Assembly (NCBI GenBank): GCA_902795065.1
Contig: CADBJR010000013.1
Coordinates: 1-63,168, forward strand
Source of the DNA: an uncultured Coriobacteriaceae bacterium
GTDB lineage: Bacteria > Actinomycetota > Coriobacteriia > Coriobacteriales > Atopobiaceae
Direction of reading: 5' to 3'
DNA: 63,168 bases
The notes under the pieces are model-generated. The model did no database searches. It was not told the DNA's origin and saw only the letters and a program-made list of their open reading frames with translations. Positions 42,206 through 50,500 of the stretch are shown piece after piece (the stretch's first letter is position 1; each line of letters opens with the position of its first letter). Made by a program: the position numbers and the translations under genes.

Positions 42206-42568
42206 GGGGGCGACTGGTTTCGACAGGGTGTGTTTGAGACGGGCAGCAGGCCGTGGTCTCCTCGCCACGTAAAACAGGGGTACCGTCAAATGAATTGACA
42301 ACAACACTTACCAGGGCTATGCCCTCGCTGCTTAATAAACAAGTAGCCGCGGATCCGGAGGTCTTCTCCTGCTTCCGGTGACGCGTCATTCAGGGAGATG
42401 CGCTGCGCGGACGTAGCGGGTATGCTGCGCAGCAAAGATCGAACCGGCTAGGGCGTGCGGAGCGGGTCGCTCGGCACCAAGCGCCCGAAACCTTTCGAGC
42501 GACTGAGCCTGGAGACACCTATCAGGAACGTGCTTTGGACCGGAGTTCGATTCTCCGCGCCTCCACCA
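42206..42568 (+). ncRNA. ssrA: Transfer-messenger RNA (tmRNA)
   Basis: A 363-base one-piece tmRNA. The acceptor stem GGGGGCG (42206-42212) pairs with CGCCTCC near the 3' end and the CCA is encoded (42566-42568). The 5' GACTGGTTTCGAC D-arm region and the 3' GGAGTTCGATTCTCC T-arm are clear. The tag frame reads DNNTYQGYALAA from the GAC at 42297 and stops with TAA at 42333-42335; the ALAA end is the usual protease degron. It releases stalled ribosomes and labels the unfinished protein. Confidence 0.95.
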
Positions 42569-42629
42569 TGTATGTCCGAGCCCCGGCAGCGATGCCGGGG
42601 CTCTTATTTCGGTCTTCTCGGGAGCGCTG

Positions 42630-42821
42630 GCACGGAAAGCCCCCGTTTCTAGCACGAAGGGCACATATTCCGAGGTATTTGGGTCCCAAATCGCCATCGA
42701 GCGGATACACCGCTTGCATTTCCGCAGGTAGGACGGGTGCCGATATGGCTCCGATGGAGATCCGATACCCAAAAACCTCGGAATATGTGCCCTTCGTGCT
42801 AGAAACGGGGGCTTTCCGTGC
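42630..42821. repeat. 192-base element: 55-bp inverted repeat with one mismatch (copy 1)
   Basis: The left arm 42630-42684 and right arm 42767-42821 are reverse complements at 54 of 55 positions; the 82-base loop contains smaller complementary words. It fills the space between tmRNA and the convergent DUF1667 gene, ending 11 bases from that gene's stop codon. A diverged relative lies at 50289-50458. Shared core words are TTTCTxGCAC, CATATTCCGAGG or its variants, and TCGCCATCG near the loop. Confidence 0.95.
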
Positions 42822-42831
42822 ACGGGCGGTG

Positions 42832-43194
42832 CTATGACGTCGGCAGATCGCGTGCTGCGACTACATCGACACCTGTGCCGCACACGTTGGCGAGAACCAC
42901 ATCGCCCATGCGGAGCGGTGCAGCCACATGTATGGCGTTCACCTGTGCCAAGCAGTCGTGCAGCAGCTCGCGTGGGACTGGCGCGGTGCCCTGGACGGCC
43001 AGCCTCCGCAGGGGAGAGCCCTCCGCGGCGACGGTGGTGGTGAGCGTGCGTAGGGGGTGCGTGTGCTCGGCGAGGGCGTACTCGAGTCCGCGCTTGCACG
43101 AGTGGCCGCTCACCTCGAGGGCATCGGGCTCGCCTGCGACGGTGATGCAGCAGCTGCGCGGGCAGATGATGCAGGTGTAGGTGCTCTCAGCCAT
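42832..43194 (-). CDS. DUF1667 family cysteine-rich protein
   Basis: A 120-residue protein with the DUF1667 pattern: TCIICPRSCCITV near the N-terminus and SGHSCKRGLEYALAE after it, four conserved cysteines likely to bind a metal or Fe-S cluster. The family is found next to GlpA/GlpB-like FAD dehydrogenases and probably passes electrons with them. The ATG follows the upstream stop codon without a gap (TAGATG). It is the last gene of the minus-strand operon. Confidence 0.87.
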   Translation of the reverse strand: MAESTYTCIICPRSCCITVAGEPDALEVSGHSCKRGLEYALAEHTHPLRTLTTTVAAEGSPLRRLAVQGTAPVPRELLHDCLAQVNAIHVAAPLRMGDVVLANVCGTGVDVVAARDLPTS

Positions 43195-44460
43195 CTAACC
43201 CACCTCCACGATCTCGAGCGTCGGTGCGGCGCCTGCGGGTACCCGCGCCTCCAGCGAGAGCATGCTGGCAGGTGCGACGGCAACCAGCCGCTTGCGCGCC
43301 AGGATTACTCCGCCCGCGACCACACGCAGCTCCACGCGCTCGGCGGGATGCTGCACACGGCAGAAGAAGCGCAGGTCGCGGGGTCCATCTCCCACCTGCA
43401 CACGCTGTGGGACGCACGCGCCCACATTGCCCGCTGTCGTCACGGGCAGATAGGGGCGCTCGTCCGGGCATCCAGCGTCAAGCCACGCGCACGCGCCGCG
43501 CGCCGCCAGCTCGCCCGATTCGCTCACATAGTCCACGAGGTCGAAGACGATGCTCACGTTGCCCGATGCGAAGATGCCGGGCACGTTGGTCATGAAGGTG
43601 TCGTCCAGCATGGGTCCGCGGGTCACGGGATCGAGCTCCACGCCCGCCTGCTTCGACAGCTCGTTCTCGGGGATGAGGCCCACGGCGAGGACGAGCAGGT
43701 CGCAGGGTACGTAGCGCTCGGTGCCGGCAACGGGCTTGCCGTCTGCTCCGCGTGCGGCAACGGTGACCCCCTCAAGGCGGTGCTTTCCGTGCACGCGCGA
43801 CACCATGTGCGAGAGGCGCAGGGGGATGCCGTAGTCCTCGAGGCACTGCACGACGTTGCGCGCCAGGCCGCCCGGATGGTCCATGATCTCGTAGACGCCC
43901 TCGACCTCGATGCCCTCGAGCGCCATGCGGCGCGCCATGATGAGCCCGATGTCGCCGGATCCGAGAATCACGGCGTGCGTCCCGGGCAGATAGCCCTCCA
44001 CGTTGATGTAGCGCTGCGCAGCGCCCGCGGTGATGACGCCTTGGGGGCGCTCGCCGTGGAGCAGCACCTGCGCTGCCGTGCGTTCGCGGCAGCCCATGGC
44101 GAGGATGACCGCGCCCGCGCGCACGTGCACCATGCCGTCGGTCGGGTTGGTCGCCCAGATCTCGCGGTTCGCCGCAAGCTCGAGCACCATCGTGTCGAGC
44201 AGCACCTCGATGCGCGCGCCGTCGGTCCGCGCCGCTTCGAGCCGGTCGATGAAGCGCTGCGCGTAGGTGCAGCCGCTCACGGACTCGCCGAAGCGGAGCA
44301 GCCCGAAGCCGTCGTGGATGCACTGCTGCAGGATGCCGCCCAGCTCGGTGTTGCGCTCGAGGATGGCGCAGCTGCGTCCGCGGTGCGCGACCTCGAGGGC
44401 GGCTGCCAACCCCGCAGGACCACCGCCGATGACGGCGACGTCAACGCTCAGCTCACGCAC
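43195..44460 (-). CDS. NAD(P)/FAD-dependent oxidoreductase (GlpB-like partner)
   Basis: A 421-residue flavoprotein. The FAD motif is VAVIGGGPAGLAAALE at the N-terminus, a second dinucleotide motif is VILGSGDIGLIMARR, and the late FAD motif reads GIFASGNVS. A redox pair of the thioredoxin-reductase type is not visible. In related operons this protein sits between the glycerol-3-phosphate-dehydrogenase-like protein and DUF1667, probably carrying electrons. It overlaps the upstream gene by eight bases. Confidence 0.87.
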   Translation of the reverse strand: MRELSVDVAVIGGGPAGLAAALEVAHRGRSCAILERNTELGGILQQCIHDGFGLLRFGESVSGCTYAQRFIDRLEAARTDGARIEVLLDTMVLELAANREIWATNPTDGMVHVRAGAVILAMGCRERTAAQVLLHGERPQGVITAGAAQRYINVEGYLPGTHAVILGSGDIGLIMARRMALEGIEVEGVYEIMDHPGGLARNVVQCLEDYGIPLRLSHMVSRVHGKHRLEGVTVAARGADGKPVAGTERYVPCDLLVLAVGLIPENELSKQAGVELDPVTRGPMLDDTFMTNVPGIFASGNVSIVFDLVDYVSESGELAARGACAWLDAGCPDERPYLPVTTAGNVGACVPQRVQVGDGPRDLRFFCRVQHPAERVELRVVAGGVILARKRLVAVAPASMLSLEARVPAGAAPTLEIVEVG

Positions 44461-46345
44461 GGCCGCTCACCTCCCCGCTGCCCCCACGGCTGTCGCAGCG
44501 CAGCACCTCGCTTCCAGGGCCGTGCAGGCACACCTCGGTGGGGTCGCAGCCCAGCTCGCGGGCGATGATCTCGAGCACGCGCGGTTGGCAGAAGCCGCCT
44601 TGGCAGCGACCCATGCCCGCGCGGCAACGCCGCTTGATGGCGTCGATAGACCGCGGCACGATGGGCGCGCGCAGCACGTCGAGGATCTCGCCCTCGGTGA
44701 TGCCCTCGCAACGGCAGACGATGCGTCCGTACTCGGGCCGCTCGGCGATGAGTGCGTCGCGCTCCTCGTGCGAGAGCTCGCGCAGGCGCACGGGGCGGTC
44801 GCGGCGCGGGTTGAATGCGGGGTTCTCGCCCACGGGGCGCTCCTCGCGCGCCGCGTCTTCGCGGATGATGCCGGCCACCATGCACGCGATGGCGGGGGAG
44901 GAGCCCACGCCGGGGCTCTGGATGGCGCCCGCCTGCACGAGACCGCGGGTGACCTCGCTCATGCCGATCTGGAAGTCCTCGGAGAAGTCCGCGGGGCGCG
45001 AGCCGGCGAACAGGCGGATGATGTCGCGCTCGGAGACCTCGGGATTCTCGTTGATGGCCATGATGAAGCCGAGCTCCTCGTCGGTGGTGCGCGTCTCCTG
45101 TTTGTCGGGCACCTCTGTGGCCGATGGACCGATGAGGATGTTGCGGTCCGGCGTGAACTCCATGCCGCCGCCCTTGGAGTTGGGGTCGCGTCCCTGCTTC
45201 TTCTCGGGGTTCATGTGGCCCGTGAGATGCCGGTACATGGGCGGCTTGGCCTTGTCGATGATGGCGATCGTGCCGCGACGCGGGTGGATCGTGAAGAGGC
45301 GGTCGCCCGCCATCGCCGAGATCTCGTCGGAATAGGCGCCGGCGGCGTTGACCACGTAGCGGCAGCGGATGAGGCCGCGGCTGGTGAGCACGCCGGTGAT
45401 GCGGCGGCTTCCCTCCTCGCCGTCCTCCACACCGGCGATGCGCTCGGTCTCCACGCGGCAGACGGGTGTATCGAGCATGACGCGCACGCCGTTGGCCGCG
45501 GCGTTCTCGGCGAGCGCGACGACGACCTCGTAGGTGTTGACGCGTCCCTGGCTGGGCATCCACAGGCCCATGACCGGCTTGTGGCCGTACTCGGCGAGGG
45601 TGTGCTCGATCTCGAGGCACTGCTTGCCATCGATGAGGCGCGGGCGCCAGTCGCCGTTGCGCACGGCGGTCTTGAACTCGTCTGCCAGCTCGTCGATGTC
45701 CTCGGGATCCTCCACGTAGAGCAGGTCGCCGCAGCGATCGAACGAGAAGCCCAGCTCGTCGGCAAGCTGGTCCCACATGCGGTTGCCGAGCACGCTCATC
45801 TCGGCTTTGAGGGTGCCGGGAGTGACGCCGCCCGCATGGTGGACGCCGCCATTGTTTGCCTTGGATGCCCCACAGGCGACGTCCTCCGCCGCCTCGACGG
45901 CGATGACGCGCAGGTCGGTGCGGGAGAGCTCGCGGCAGATCGCAGCGCCCACGATGCCCAGGCCCACCACCACGACGTCGCACTCGGCGAGAAGACAGGC
46001 CTTCTCGCCCGCTGCGATCCAGGTGGAGTAGTCGCGTCGGGGGATGTCGACGTCCGCGGCGGTCATGTCGCTCACCACGTTGCGCACGCCCGCGACCTTG
46101 GCCACGGCGTGCGCGAGGTCGCAGAGCTGCTGGTAGCTGGCGCACTGGCCTGAGAGCGTCACCACGCCGCGGAAGTCGCATGAGGCGGAGATGCCCGCGG
46201 CGACGTCCGGGAAGCGCTCCGCCACGCATGCCAGCACGCGTGCGGCCAGCTCCTCGCGCTGTGCGGCGTCGAGCCGCTGGGCGCGGATGCGCTGCCAGGG
46301 GCGCTCGCCCTGCTCATCCTGCAGAAGCACGAACCCGTAACCCAT
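44453..46345 (-). CDS. Glycerol-3-phosphate-dehydrogenase-like flavoprotein with N-terminal BON and C-terminal [2Fe-2S] domains
   Basis: A 630-residue protein with three parts. Residues 15-100 resemble a BON domain (GVVTLSGQCASYQQL and AGVRNVVSDM). Residues 120-480 are a GlpA/GlpO-type FAD oxidoreductase with VVVGLGIVGAAICREL and NAAGAYSDEI. The C-terminal part (about 545-600) is a BFD-like [2Fe-2S] domain with CRCEG and CRAGMGRCQGGFC. It probably oxidises glycerol 3-phosphate or a related polyol phosphate. The N-terminal BON domain is not part of standard GlpA. Its start shares one base with the stop of the kinase gene. Confidence 0.82.
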   Translation of the reverse strand: MGYGFVLLQDEQGERPWQRIRAQRLDAAQREELAARVLACVAERFPDVAAGISASCDFRGVVTLSGQCASYQQLCDLAHAVAKVAGVRNVVSDMTAADVDIPRRDYSTWIAAGEKACLLAECDVVVVGLGIVGAAICRELSRTDLRVIAVEAAEDVACGASKANNGGVHHAGGVTPGTLKAEMSVLGNRMWDQLADELGFSFDRCGDLLYVEDPEDIDELADEFKTAVRNGDWRPRLIDGKQCLEIEHTLAEYGHKPVMGLWMPSQGRVNTYEVVVALAENAAANGVRVMLDTPVCRVETERIAGVEDGEEGSRRITGVLTSRGLIRCRYVVNAAGAYSDEISAMAGDRLFTIHPRRGTIAIIDKAKPPMYRHLTGHMNPEKKQGRDPNSKGGGMEFTPDRNILIGPSATEVPDKQETRTTDEELGFIMAINENPEVSERDIIRLFAGSRPADFSEDFQIGMSEVTRGLVQAGAIQSPGVGSSPAIACMVAGIIREDAAREERPVGENPAFNPRRDRPVRLRELSHEERDALIAERPEYGRIVCRCEGITEGEILDVLRAPIVPRSIDAIKRRCRAGMGRCQGGFCQPRVLEIIARELGCDPTEVCLHGPGSEVLRCDSRGGSGEVSGRA

Positions 46346-47886
46346 CAGTACAGCTCCTTCGCAATTCCGGAGATGGCGCCCACGAGCAGGTCGTAGCGCC
46401 TGAGCGCCTTATCGTATGCCTCGCGTGTGGCGGGGTCGGGCTCGAAGGTGCGGTCGATGCCGCCGGCGCCCGTGAGCTCGGCGGCCTGCTCGACGCTCTT
46501 CCAAACGCCCACACCCACGCCGGCGAGCATGGCGGCACCCAGCGCGGCCGCATCCTGCGTGTTGCGCATGGTGACGACGCGCCTGCCCAGCACGTCGGCT
46601 TTGATCTGGCACCAGAGGGGGCTGTTGGACGCTCCGCCCAGGCAGCGCACCTCCTCGATGCGCTGGCCGGTGGCCGCTTCGGTGCAGTCGACCATGCGGC
46701 GCACGTTCATCGCCGACGCCTCGAGGAACGCGCGGGCGATATGGGCGCGCGTGTGCTGCAGGTTGAGGCCGTAGAGGAGGCCCTTCCCGTACTGGTTGGT
46801 GTCGGGCGCTCCCGCTCCCTCGAAGTGCGGGAGCAGCACCAGCCCGTCCGAGCCTGCGGGCACGGTGGCGGCCATCTCGTCCATGGCCTCGTAGGCCGGT
46901 TGTCCGCCTGCCTGTTCCTCTGCGAGTTCGTCGGCGAAGAGCTGGTCGCGGAGCCAGCGGAACATGATGCCGCCCTTGGCGCCCATGTTGAGCAGGTAGC
47001 GCCCGGGTTCCACGCCGTAGAAGCAGGCCAGCTCGCCGTCCGGGTCGAGGACGGGTGCGTCGGCCATCGTGCAGACGGTGGTGAGGGCGCCGGTGGATTC
47101 GCTGAAGGTTCCCGGCGCGACGTTGCCCACGCCGATCGTGCCGCAGGCGGTGTCGAGGCCGCCCTGCACGATCGCGAGCGTGCGCGGCAGGCCCAGCTCG
47201 TCGGCGACCTCGGGCAGGATGGTGCCGAGCGGCGTCGCGCTGGGCAGCACCGGGGGCAGCACGCCCTCGTCGATGCCCAGACGTCCGAGCATCTCGGGCC
47301 ACCACGCGCCGGTGCGGATGTCGAGCATGTACGAGGAGCACCACAGCGACGGCTCGCCGATGGCGCGGCCTGCGAGGCGCAGGAAGAACCAATCCTCGAG
47401 CAGCACGATCCTGCTCGTGCGCGCGAGAACGTCGGGGCGGTTGCGGCGCATCCAGAGGATCTTCGCCGCGGGATAGAGCGAGATGATGGGTCCCTGGCCG
47501 GTGCGCTCGAGGATTTCCTCGGCGCCGAACCACGCGTTGATCTGCTCGGCTTCGGCCTGGGCGCGCGTGTCCATCCACACGATGAAGTTGCCCATGGGCT
47601 CGCCGTCGGCGTCGAGGAAGGTGAGCGTCTCGCCCTGCACCGAGAGGCTCATGGCGATGATGGCCGCGCGATTGATCCCCGCGGTGTCGAGGACGCGCTG
47701 GAGGCAGGTCTTGAAGGCGCCCCAGTAGACGTCGGGGCTCTGCTCGACCACGCCGGTGGTCGGGGTGATGAGGGTGTGCTCCACGGTGTTGACCGCCACC
47801 GCGCGACCGTCCGTGTCGAAGAGGCCCACCTTTACGGCGGTGGTGCCCAGATCGGCTCCGATGAGGTAGCGCCGCTCGTCGCCCAT
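46345..47886 (-). CDS. FGGY-family carbohydrate kinase (glycerol-kinase/xylulokinase type)
   Basis: A 513-residue kinase of normal family length. The first phosphate-binding loop is GADLGTTAVKVGLFD, and the second domain shows STGALTTVCT and GGASNSPLWCQI. The ATG at 47886 has GGGAGGAG upstream. First gene of a four-gene operon with the FAD dehydrogenase, its partner and DUF1667. Glycerol would be the simplest substrate, but the sequence also looks like xylulokinases, so another polyol or ketose is possible. Confidence 0.82.
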   Translation of the reverse strand: MGDERRYLIGADLGTTAVKVGLFDTDGRAVAVNTVEHTLITPTTGVVEQSPDVYWGAFKTCLQRVLDTAGINRAAIIAMSLSVQGETLTFLDADGEPMGNFIVWMDTRAQAEAEQINAWFGAEEILERTGQGPIISLYPAAKILWMRRNRPDVLARTSRIVLLEDWFFLRLAGRAIGEPSLWCSSYMLDIRTGAWWPEMLGRLGIDEGVLPPVLPSATPLGTILPEVADELGLPRTLAIVQGGLDTACGTIGVGNVAPGTFSESTGALTTVCTMADAPVLDPDGELACFYGVEPGRYLLNMGAKGGIMFRWLRDQLFADELAEEQAGGQPAYEAMDEMAATVPAGSDGLVLLPHFEGAGAPDTNQYGKGLLYGLNLQHTRAHIARAFLEASAMNVRRMVDCTEAATGQRIEEVRCLGGASNSPLWCQIKADVLGRRVVTMRNTQDAAALGAAMLAGVGVGVWKSVEQAAELTGAGGIDRTFEPDPATREAYDKALRRYDLLVGAISGIAKELY

Positions 47887-48079
47887 GGCTCCTCCCGTCT
47901 CCATGTGGCATGCATATCATGGCCACTTGTCTATGTTCCGACACACCGGGACGCGCGTCACGCGCCTTTCGACGTGCAGTCGTGCGGGCTGGACGAATGG
48001 AGGGGAAGGAGGATCCTCCAGGAGGGGATACAATGGGTTCCGAACCAGAACAGATCCGTTGAGTCCGAGAGGATGCGTG

Positions 48080-49780
48080 ATGTGCATGAAGCTCGTCGTT
48101 ATCGGTGGTGTCACCGGCGGTATGTCCACGGCGGCGCGTCTGAGGCGCCTCGACCCCACGGCGCAGATCGTCGTCTTCGAGCGCGGCGAGAACGTGTCGT
48201 TCTCGAACTGCGCCCTGCCGTACTATCTGGGCGGCGTCGTCGCGCAGAGCGAGAGCCTCATCCTGATGACGCCTGCATCGCTCAAGCGCCAGCACGACCT
48301 CGACGTGCGCGTGCGCTGCGAGGTCACCGCCATCAACCGCGACCGCAAGACGGTCACGGTGCTCGACCTCGCGTCCGGCGAAACCTTCGAGGAGCCCTAC
48401 GACAAGCTCATGCTCGCCCCCGGTGCGAGTCCCATCATGCCGAAGAGCATCGCCGGCATCGACCGTGCCAACGTGTTCAGCGTGCGCAACGTGGGCGATG
48501 TCGTGGCCATCAAGCAGGCGGTCGACCAGATCGAGCGCGTCGCCGTGGTCGGCGGCGGCTTCATCGGCGTCGAGGTCGCCGAGAACCTCAAGAACGCGGG
48601 CAAGCAGGTCGCCCTCATCGAGGGCACCGACCAGATCCTCGCCCCGTTCGACTACGACATGGTCCAGATCCTGCACAAGGAGCTCGACGACAACGGCGTC
48701 GAGCTGCACCTCTCGTCCACCGTCACCGCCATCGACGACGAGGGCGTCACGGTCAAGACCGCGCAGGGCGAGCAGCTCATCCCCGCCCAGGCCGTCATCA
48801 TGGCCATCGGCGTGGCGCCCGAGACCAAGCTCGCCGTGGACGCGGGCCTCGAGCTGGGCGAGACGCGCGGCATCCGCGTGAACAGCAACTACCAGACCTC
48901 CGACCCCGACATCTACGCCGTGGGCGACGCCATCGAGACTTACGACGCGCTCGCGCACCGCTGGGGCAGGCTCGCGCTCGCAGGCCCCGCCCAGCGCCAG
49001 GCGCGCGCCGCAGCCGACCACATGCGCGGCATGCCGGTCTCCAACAGGGGCTACATCGGGTCGTCCTGCCTGCGCGTGTTCGGACGCAACGCCGCCTGCA
49101 CCGGCCTCTCCGAGAAGGCCGCCAAGGCCGCCGGGTACTCCTACGACTCGGTCATGCTCTTCCCGACCGACAAGGTGGGCATCATGCCCGGCAGCCACTA
49201 CCTTGCGTTCAAGCTGGTCTTCGAGGTGCCCACGGGCAAGATCCTCGGCGCGCAGGCCATCGGCGCGGGCGAGGCGGACAAGCGCGTGGACGTCATCGCC
49301 ACGATGATCACCATGGGCGGCACCATCGCCGACCTCAAGGACCTTGAGCTGTGCTACGCGCCGCTCTTCTCCACCGCGAAGGACGTGGTCAACTTCGCCG
49401 CGCTCATCGCCGAGAACGTGCTCACCGGCCGCATGCCGCAGGTGCACGTGAGCGAGGTGCGCGGGCTCGTCGAGAGCGGCGCCTACATCGTCGACGTGCG
49501 CGAGGAGGGCGAGTTCGCGCGCGGGCACCTCAAGGGCGCCCACAACGTTCCGCTGTCGCAGCTGCGCTCGCGCATGGACGAGATCCCGCGCGATGTACCC
49601 GTCTACCTGCATTGCCGCTCGAGCCAGCGCAGCTACTACGCGCTGTGCTGCCTGCGCGGCAACGGCTGGACCAACGTGGTCAACATCAGCGGCTCGTTCC
49701 TGGGCATCAGCCTGTACGAGTACTTCAACGACAAGATGCTCGGCCGCGAGCCCATCGTCACGGCATACAACTGCAACTAG
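48080..49780 (+). CDS. CoA-disulfide-reductase-like flavoprotein fused to a rhodanese domain
   Basis: A 566-residue protein of the CoADR-RHD type. The FAD loop is VVIGGVTGGMSTAARLRR, the redox-active cysteine is C44 in SFSNCALPYYLGG, the NAD-binding loop is VAVVGGGFIGVEVAE and the later FAD motif is IYAVGDAIE. The C-terminal rhodanese domain (about 470-566) has the loop LHCRSSQRS with its catalytic cysteine. Such enzymes reduce CoA disulfide, persulfides or polysulfides with NADH. GAGAGG seven bases upstream favours the ATG at 48080 over that at 48086. Confidence 0.88.
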   Translation: MCMKLVVIGGVTGGMSTAARLRRLDPTAQIVVFERGENVSFSNCALPYYLGGVVAQSESLILMTPASLKRQHDLDVRVRCEVTAINRDRKTVTVLDLASGETFEEPYDKLMLAPGASPIMPKSIAGIDRANVFSVRNVGDVVAIKQAVDQIERVAVVGGGFIGVEVAENLKNAGKQVALIEGTDQILAPFDYDMVQILHKELDDNGVELHLSSTVTAIDDEGVTVKTAQGEQLIPAQAVIMAIGVAPETKLAVDAGLELGETRGIRVNSNYQTSDPDIYAVGDAIETYDALAHRWGRLALAGPAQRQARAAADHMRGMPVSNRGYIGSSCLRVFGRNAACTGLSEKAAKAAGYSYDSVMLFPTDKVGIMPGSHYLAFKLVFEVPTGKILGAQAIGAGEADKRVDVIATMITMGGTIADLKDLELCYAPLFSTAKDVVNFAALIAENVLTGRMPQVHVSEVRGLVESGAYIVDVREEGEFARGHLKGAHNVPLSQLRSRMDEIPRDVPVYLHCRSSQRSYYALCCLRGNGWTNVVNISGSFLGISLYEYFNDKMLGREPIVTAYNCN

Positions 49781-49794
49781 GGGAGTTGATCGAT

Positions 49795-50241
49795 ATGGCG
49801 GAGAAGATGACCGAGGCGCTGGCCAACGAGATGATGGACCAAGGCTACCACTGCTCGCAGGTCGTTCTCATGCACGCTGCCGAGGTGCTCGGTCGCGACA
49901 AGGACGACGCCCTGCGCATCTCGTCCGGCTTGGGCGGCGGGCTCTTCCACGGCGAGGTGTGCGGCACCGTGAGCGCGGCTGCCGTTGCCATCAGCATGAA
50001 GTACGGATTCCACGAGCCCAACCCTGGCGAGATCGACGACCTGCTCAAGGCCAAGGTGCACGAGTTCGAGGACCGCTTCATCGAGCGCTTCGGGTCGCTG
50101 CGCTGCAAGGAGCTTCTGGGCGGATACGACTGCCTGCTGCCCGAGGACGGCCAAGCCGAGGGCGTTCCCGAGGATCCGTGGGAGCATTGCGGCGCGTACT
50201 GCGCGTATGCCTGCGAGCTGCTCGACGATCTGCTGGGCTAG
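49795..50241 (+). CDS. C_GCAxxG_C_C family redox-type protein
   Basis: A 148-residue protein of the family defined by a Cys, a G-C-A/T-x-x-G segment and a C-terminal Cys pair. Here they are [21 protein letters not shown] and DCLLP followed by [13 protein letters not shown]. It starts 14 bases after the CoADR-rhodanese gene with a GGGGAG site and is likely co-transcribed. Members are common in anaerobes and are thought to be redox or metal-binding. Pairing with a disulfide/persulfide reductase fits that idea. Confidence 0.83.
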
Positions 50242-50288: not shown

Positions 50289-50458
50289 TTTCTGGCACAA
50301 AGTGCGCTTATTCCGAGGTTTTCCGGCCTCATTTTCCCATCGGCGGAATAAGGGGTTCGCAAAACCGCAGGTCAGAGAGCCGCCACTTTTGCCCTATAGT
50401 CCCCCGATGGCGATTCCGCATCGAAAAACCTCGGAAAAAGTGCACCTTGTGCCAGAAA
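50289..50458. repeat. Long inverted repeat, diverged relative of the element at 42630 (copy 2)
   Basis: The core arms 50289-50322 and 50425-50458 are complementary at 31 of 34 positions, and pairing extends outward with interruptions on both sides. The arms contain TTTCTGGCAC and TTCCGAGGTTTT, and the loop-proximal part has CCCATCGGCGG and GATGGCGATTCCG, matching the element at 42630. It lies between the C_GCAxxG gene and the release-factor-like gene. Confidence 0.88.
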
Positions 50459-50500
50459 CGGCGCTTCTCCGTGCCAGTCGCCCGCGCTACCATTGTCCGC

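Follow-up and report, generated by a model that had tools for sequence, protein, structure and literature searches.

Within the 63,168-nucleotide stretch of DNA analysed here (the window), a palindromic element, B, lies at 50289..50458 on the forward (+) strand, between a C_GCAxxG_C_C gene and a gene encoding an RF-1 domain (GGQ) protein, P0001 (50501..50878, +). A second element, A (42627..42824, +), has as its left neighbour a tmRNA gene (42206..42568, +), whose own terminator is at 42578-42603. The two elements have the same orientation and flank a segment (42832..50241) with DUF1667, Pyr_redox, DAO, FGGY kinase, CoADR-type and C_GCAxxG_C_C open reading frames, which agrees with a reading made earlier from the sequence alone, in which they bracketed a kinase/dehydrogenase operon and CoADR genes.

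The left arm of B (TTTCTGGCAC..TTATTCCGAGGTTTT, 50289..50322, +) pairs at 31 of 34 positions with the right arm (50425..50458, +), a count of the sequence-only reading that was reproduced by an inverted-repeat scan; the right arm was also recognized by motif comparison with A. Alignment with all copies of the genus places the asymmetric loop core (CCATCGG..CAAAACCGCAGGTCAGAG) at 50331..50380 (+), and the fold and pair counts show that CCATCGG at 50337-50343 pairs with an inner mirrored box, CCGATGG, at 50404..50410 (+). In A, the arms are at 42630-42684 and 42767-42821 (+, inverted-repeat scan) and the loop core at 42688-42737 (+). As previously described, TTTCTxGCAC, TTCCGAGG and CCATCG follow each other in one order in both A and B, together with the mirrored half. 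The real unit is larger than the span first given. Fold, alignment and inverted-repeat scan give A the ends TGGCAC..GTGCAC, from TGGCAC at 42628 to about 42824, while alignment with A, C47 and C14b places the right outer end of B (..CTCCGTGCCAG) at 50459..50477 (+), with GTGCCA at 50471-50476; the left outer end of B is degraded. Element A is the longer of the two and its pairing is almost perfect. Compared with dinucleotide shuffles, the single-strand fold of B has a z of -8.3 as RNA and -6.9 as DNA, and the fold of A has a z of -16.0. In the window as a whole, the scan found no more than four inverted repeats that score comparably, and two of these are A and B.

A dispersed family of palindromes between genes

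Element B is one copy of a dispersed, undescribed family of DNA palindromes located between genes. A search with B revealed six full TTCCGAGG-type copies and one half copy interrupted at its centre, and these six full copies served to build a covariance model, with which the genome and its relatives were searched. This draft genome (G000, 53 contigs) contains about 16 members of three arm types, a number that, like those for the relatives, rests on model searches of draft sequence, several of the relatives being incomplete. The earlier description of two tmRNA-linked copies was therefore too narrow: the tmRNA gene adjoins A only, and the other copies adjoin unrelated genes. Members recovered by the covariance model include C9, which is of type I with ..GAATTTTCCGCG, and C38a, C38b, C10, C19, C40 and C3, which have type II arms (..TGGCGTTTTTCCGGACTTGTCGGCGG); two more diverged palindromes flank a gene on C35. 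The unit measures 165-220 bases, with arms of about 65 bases and a conserved loop of about 50 bases, and the asymmetric loop core CCATCGGG..GTTTGCGCAGGTCAG is common to all members. In most copies the distance to a stop codon is about 100 bases or less, and the neighbouring genes are often convergent.

Members were also found with the covariance model in four genomes of the same genus (G001-G004), with E-values down to 3e-27. Their length, outer ends and inner boxes are as in G000 and their arm sequences are different, being TTCCGCAG/TTCCGCGC in G001 and G003 and TTTTCCGCGG in G004. The same-genus copies are mostly at shared sites with the same flanking genes, which shows that many are orthologous. 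The site of B, between the C_GCAxxG_C_C and RF-1 domain genes, is common to G000 and G004, A is found behind the tmRNA gene in both G000 and G001, and elements precede the RF-1 domain gene in G000, G001 and G004. A search for an exact core pattern yielded a single, isolated match among the genome contigs, located in an unrelated MAG, and zero matches in IMG/VR, plasmids and phages; this search was nearly empty because the arm sequence is too species-specific. No description of this palindrome family was found in the open-access literature.

Several sites are empty or have lost their copy, as the sequence-only reading had anticipated for a mobile element. In G001, the 7.7 kb between the right ends of A and B, comprising the segment and B itself, are absent, and the tmRNA gene, one element and the RF-like gene occur in succession. 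At the A site of G004, only a 24-base scar, TGGAAACGGGCCTTATCTGCTCGA, lies between the tmRNA gene and DUF1667, and the copy at the C21 site is missing in G004 and G003, where unrelated small hairpins are found. A constant target-site duplication is visible neither in the copies nor at two identical 200-base units in G002, although old copies could have lost one.

Some further features of these sites were observed. The short RF-1 domain (GGQ) gene and the tmRNA gene of G001, with the element alone between them, are two candidate ribosome-rescue genes in adjacent positions. In G004 (C3:10200-10650, L274), the 3' end of the tmRNA gene and its terminator are partly duplicated behind the gene. Two oppositely oriented palindromes in G003 (C19:40757-42322) bracket a single open reading frame of 317 aa, of secreted type by its start, in a cassette-like manner. 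An insertion-sequence-like end, CCAAGAAAATGTCCGCACCCCC, is present inside two different palindromes of G000, C47 (1-100) and C40 (1-35), and another insertion seemingly interrupts a palindrome centre at C19:35654. The palindromes may be preferred landing sites of insertion sequences.

Paired changes and concerted arm evolution

When 31 type I elements were aligned without use of structure, 80.7% of cells paired, compared with 35-46% in a slid control. Two-sided changed cells number 221 (shuffles, 106), and the score for covariation is 0.349, whereas the shuffled and slid controls reach 0.173 and at most 0.124, respectively; these values come from elements collected by a structure-including model and hence biased to paired ones, a bias that the slid control and the comparison of orthologues ease but do not remove. 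The compensatory changes were counted in 13 orthologue comparisons, in which 78 pairs had changed on both sides with Watson-Crick pairing kept, 29 on one side, and 8 on both sides with pairing lost. Preservation of pairing despite sequence change, which had been proposed from A and B, thus stands well above the shuffled and slid controls, and pairing is kept more often than it is broken.

The earlier reading attributed this preservation either to selection on structure or to correction of one arm by the other. Mismatches of the G.T kind showed no clear excess over A.C (92 versus 77 overall, 28 versus 17 in the outer arm), where RNA under selection would be expected to show one, which suggests pairing at the level of DNA rather than RNA. 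Similarly, flipped centres in two orthologue pairs favour a DNA-level process.

Arm identity is 0.92 within a copy, falling to 0.74 when copies of one genome are compared and to 0.66 when the comparison is between genomes. At an orthologous site, C14a in G000 and C123 in G004, the neighbouring proteins are 88-99% identical and the centre is largely kept; both arms carry TTATTCCGAGG in one species and ATTTTCCGCGG in the other, each being its own genome's usual arm. The pairs C31a/C13a and C52/C13c show ten paired arm changes, zero one-sided changes and an inverted centre, and in C31b/C13b the outer left arm differs while nearly all else is identical. The differences at these four pairs of sites look like conversion or inversion events rather than point mutations accumulated one by one over time. 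Two palindromes of G002 share an identical stretch of exactly 200 bases, beyond which their flanks are unrelated, which indicates that the palindrome is copied or converted as a discrete unit.

The PAP gene beside the palindromes

One protein family of about 330-400 aa, named PAP here, is recurrent among the flanking open reading frames. Its genes adjoin C9 and the C9 orthologues, and others sit between two palindromes: C38a and C38b, the identical pair of G002, and the pair on C35. In G000, each palindrome type goes with its own PAP gene, type I at C9, type II on both sides at C38 and a third type on both sides at C35. When 140 genomes of the family were searched, 21 close PAP loci turned up in 15 of them. 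With a geometry filter that was set after a first look (loop 85-125, length 140-215, within 400 bases of the locus), matching palindromes were found beside 12 of 20 close PAP loci and 1 of 48 controls (Fisher p 2e-7), the controls being distant PAP paralogues (1/10), RAYT-type loci (0/11) and tmRNA/RF-like loci (0/27). Outside the genus, a palindrome lies beside 7 of 11 PAP loci (p 7e-6). The unfiltered count is 13 of 21 PAP loci versus 3 of 28 controls, after removal of control loci that hold A or its orthologue. The strict scan left 8 of the 20 PAP loci without a palindrome, and on reading, C84, C35 and the contig-end locus C85 do have one.

The loop core of B was also recovered in most PAP-side palindromes of other genera. 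A loop profile trained on genus g1 alone recognizes the loops of PAP-side palindromes in g5, g54, g9 and g2 (z 3.5-6.5 versus shuffles), whose arms are unrelated. Poor scores were obtained for G108 of g28 (z 2.1, marginal) and for one g9 palindrome, G160a (z -0.5). What is new here is that palindromes of this shape flank PAP genes with unrelated arms and mostly the same loop core. Two covariance-model matches by distant PAP-like genes, G010.C61 and G009.C15, were dropped as members of the family since their loops did not fit (z -0.8 and 1.8).

PAP is similar to proteins that are abundant in the lineage, and the distant paralogues are mostly free of palindromes. It was absent from the phages and IMG/VR sequences searched, and one distant match of 25% was found in a Collinsella aerofaciens record. 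To judge from its gene content and this single match, the host of the palindromes is probably a coriobacterium. At the site where PAP lies between palindromes in G000 and G002, G001 (C36, L277) has a distant PAP paralogue between hairpins TTACCAAGTAC..GTACTTGGTAA, and G003 (C4, L276) has a relic of that paralogue. In genus g28 (L310, L311, L320), PAP genes contain one in-frame TAG, which is common to two species. Two such TAG-bearing loci in G108, about 14.5 kb apart and in opposite orientation, represent a duplication of the PAP locus that is identical over its whole 4 kb, so that these copies do not give the boundaries of the unit.

The close PAP clade received zero Pfam, NCBIfam and PADLOC assignments, PADLOC giving nothing beyond a weak ZorC match. 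Among 29 PAP relatives, three match REase_MTES_1575 (best 3.8e-6) and three DUF559 (best 0.003). A structural model made from 29 sequences reached a pLDDT of 89.3 and a pTM of 0.88, compared with a pLDDT of 42 from six sequences. Residues 192-303 of this model align with the catalytic domain of I-Bth0305I (3r3p; Z 10.5, rmsd 2.5, 94 of 97 residues), a match that stands above most unrelated rows, and the C-terminal domain aligns with Vsr (1vsr) at Z 7.9. Foldseek returned no significant E-value, with the I-Bth0305I chain at a probability of 0.85, and the PAP sequence profile matched the same chain at E 0.066. In the palindrome-associated clade, E195, D236, E247 and H254 are invariant and D263 nearly so, the residues being compared by sequence order. 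Residues 1-187 resemble the AbiEi antitoxin 6y8q with Z 7.1 over 116 residues, a range where unrelated matches occur, and the AbiEi_1 Pfam model matched one PAP member only (E 0.08). PAP is thus predicted to consist of an AbiEi-resembling N-terminal domain and a C-terminal nuclease domain of the EDxHD/Vsr type.

Known systems and competing explanations

REPINs are dispersed, extragenic repeats with one repeat type per RAYT enzyme gene (PMC3116915). The palindromes resemble the REPIN/RAYT system in being extragenic and of low to moderate copy number, with genome-typical arms, rare movement and old common sites, and in having a separate repeat type beside each paralogous enzyme gene, although here the partner is PAP. 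A REPIN consists of two short conserved inverted REPs of 20-40 bp and a spacer, whereas the palindromes combine an asymmetric, conserved loop with covarying arms some 65 bases long; likewise, RAYT is a Y1 HUH transposase, whereas PAP is a protein of the EDxHD/Vsr type. With I-Bth0305I and Vsr, PAP shares the predicted C-terminal fold and possibly an E..D..ExY..H..D residue pattern; in contrast to them, it has an AbiEi-like N-terminal part, no intron was seen around its gene, and palindromes flank it. The AbiEi antitoxin may share the fold of the N-terminal part and differs in that PAP is fused to a predicted nuclease domain. In size, intergenic position, hairpin potential and MITE-like dispersal, the palindromes are similar to ERIC, RUP, Correia/NEMIS, enterobacterial RU and other stem-loop families (PMC2267715). 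What defines those families is a conserved sequence. Here, by contrast, arm sequence is replaced over time with pairing and loop retained, and the palindromes are associated with a dedicated gene that is not a transposase gene.

On balance, we consider it somewhat more probable than not that B is a solo copy of a REPIN-like palindrome family that is kept and homogenized by its own homing-type nuclease, PAP. EDxHD homing endonucleases, a kind of enzyme that spreads DNA through cutting and repair, have been reviewed (PMC3943268). PAP would recognize either the loop core or the hairpin in its extruded form, and would nick or break the palindrome DNA; repair templated by another copy or by the opposite arm could then spread palindromes and flip their centres, and could bring the arms into agreement within a copy and within a genome. 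We infer that cutting of palindromes by PAP, followed by repair, is the copying route. Such a route would explain the concerted arms, the paired changes without a G.T excess, the centre flips, the exact duplication and the losses. Most solo copies are far from a PAP gene and old, being common to species, and movement must therefore be rare. Somewhat more doubtful than otherwise, in our judgement, is the broader proposal of a selfish or domesticated class of repeat in which a homing-type nuclease acts in trans on solo palindromes and break repair, not transposition, drives compensatory arm evolution.

Few non-coding repeats of bacteria are as common as those of the REP type; their copying route is debated, and RAYT transposases are the known class of partner. 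If the proposed role of PAP is true, a nuclease of the Vsr/EDxHD type, with palindromes whose arms covary and are nevertheless similar within one genome, would be a second partner class, which would suggest that a REP-like way of life has arisen more than once. It would also offer an explanation for compensatory change without the usual G.U excess, a signature that could pass for RNA structure in other genomes, and would permit a direct test, in which arm types are compared with nuclease alleles, of nuclease-driven conversion of arms or copies.

Much of the same evidence was weighed for other explanations. The palindromes are discrete, dispersed units with inverted ends, sometimes missing at a site, and genes other than PAP are likewise enclosed by pairs of copies (A/B; C19a/C19b of G003), as would be expected of ordinary MITEs, that is, deletion derivatives of an insertion sequence mobilized by an end-recognizing transposase, with PAP as a passenger between two copies. 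This is unlikely, however, since no gene with such ends occurs among the TGGCACGGAAA matches of this draft genome, no clear target duplication is visible, the conserved part is the central loop and not the ends alone, and PAP adjoins palindromes with unrelated arms in several genera. About as improbable is a passive palindrome, in which template switching during replication equalizes the arms of each copy with no dedicated enzyme and PAP merely shares variable spots with the palindromes. Quasipalindrome correction is an established replication error and would account for arms that agree better within a copy than between copies, but it leaves unexplained the arm type common to a whole genome, the shift towards it at orthologous sites, the loop conserved across genera beside PAP and the association counts.

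Pairing selected on a transcript, in a structured RNA or a 3' end element such as a terminator or mRNA stabilizer, has only a small probability. Strong predicted folding and the position of most copies near stop codons, often between convergent genes, are in its favour, as is the resemblance of the loop to half of a local terminator hairpin (CCGCAGGTC). Yet the mismatch counts given above show no clear preference for G.T, and the centre, which flips between orthologues, occurs in both orientations relative to transcription, which disfavours an orientation-dependent RNA function. A and B have no T tract or terminator call, and in Rfam only the tmRNA and one tRNA of the window were matched, the palindromes being unmatched. 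An intrinsic terminator, with a short GC hairpin and a T run, was rejected as a candidate because the terminator scan was empty in A and B, so that neither source yielded the known terminator family against which the sequence-only reading had cautioned. Equally small is the probability that the palindromes are operators to which the AbiEi-like part of PAP binds, regulating its own and other genes, while the nuclease targets other DNA, e.g. that of phages. AbiEi-type antitoxins bind inverted repeats at their own promoter, and the resemblance of the N-terminal part to such an antitoxin (Z 7.1) and the palindromes flanking the gene would fit. Against this, the palindromes frequently lie downstream of the PAP gene, solo copies are mainly at gene 3' ends, arms of 65 bases with a loop of 50 bases are unlike an operator, and the weak ZorC match was the sole result from PADLOC. 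Least probable by far is a classical REPIN moved by a RAYT transposase. This genome has six RAYT-type genes and the population style is the same, but none of 14 Y1_Tnp loci in five genomes has a palindrome within 1.5 kb, the only match being a chance one of 21 bases. Several RAYT-type loci are instead bordered by another small repeat, GGGACAGG, and RAYT was rejected as the partner.

Two observations concern other hairpins and repeats in these genomes. Terminator-like hairpins behind tRNA genes (L020, L028, L037) use a half-site, CCGCAGGTCAGAG, that equals the palindrome centre, and the loop core may therefore derive from a terminator. Small REP families, namely GGGACAGG, GAACAGAGGGACGG, CAGTTGTTTGTA and GCCGCAAAGTTGGGCA, coexist in these genomes (RAYT loci L228-L233, and L021, L022 and L136).
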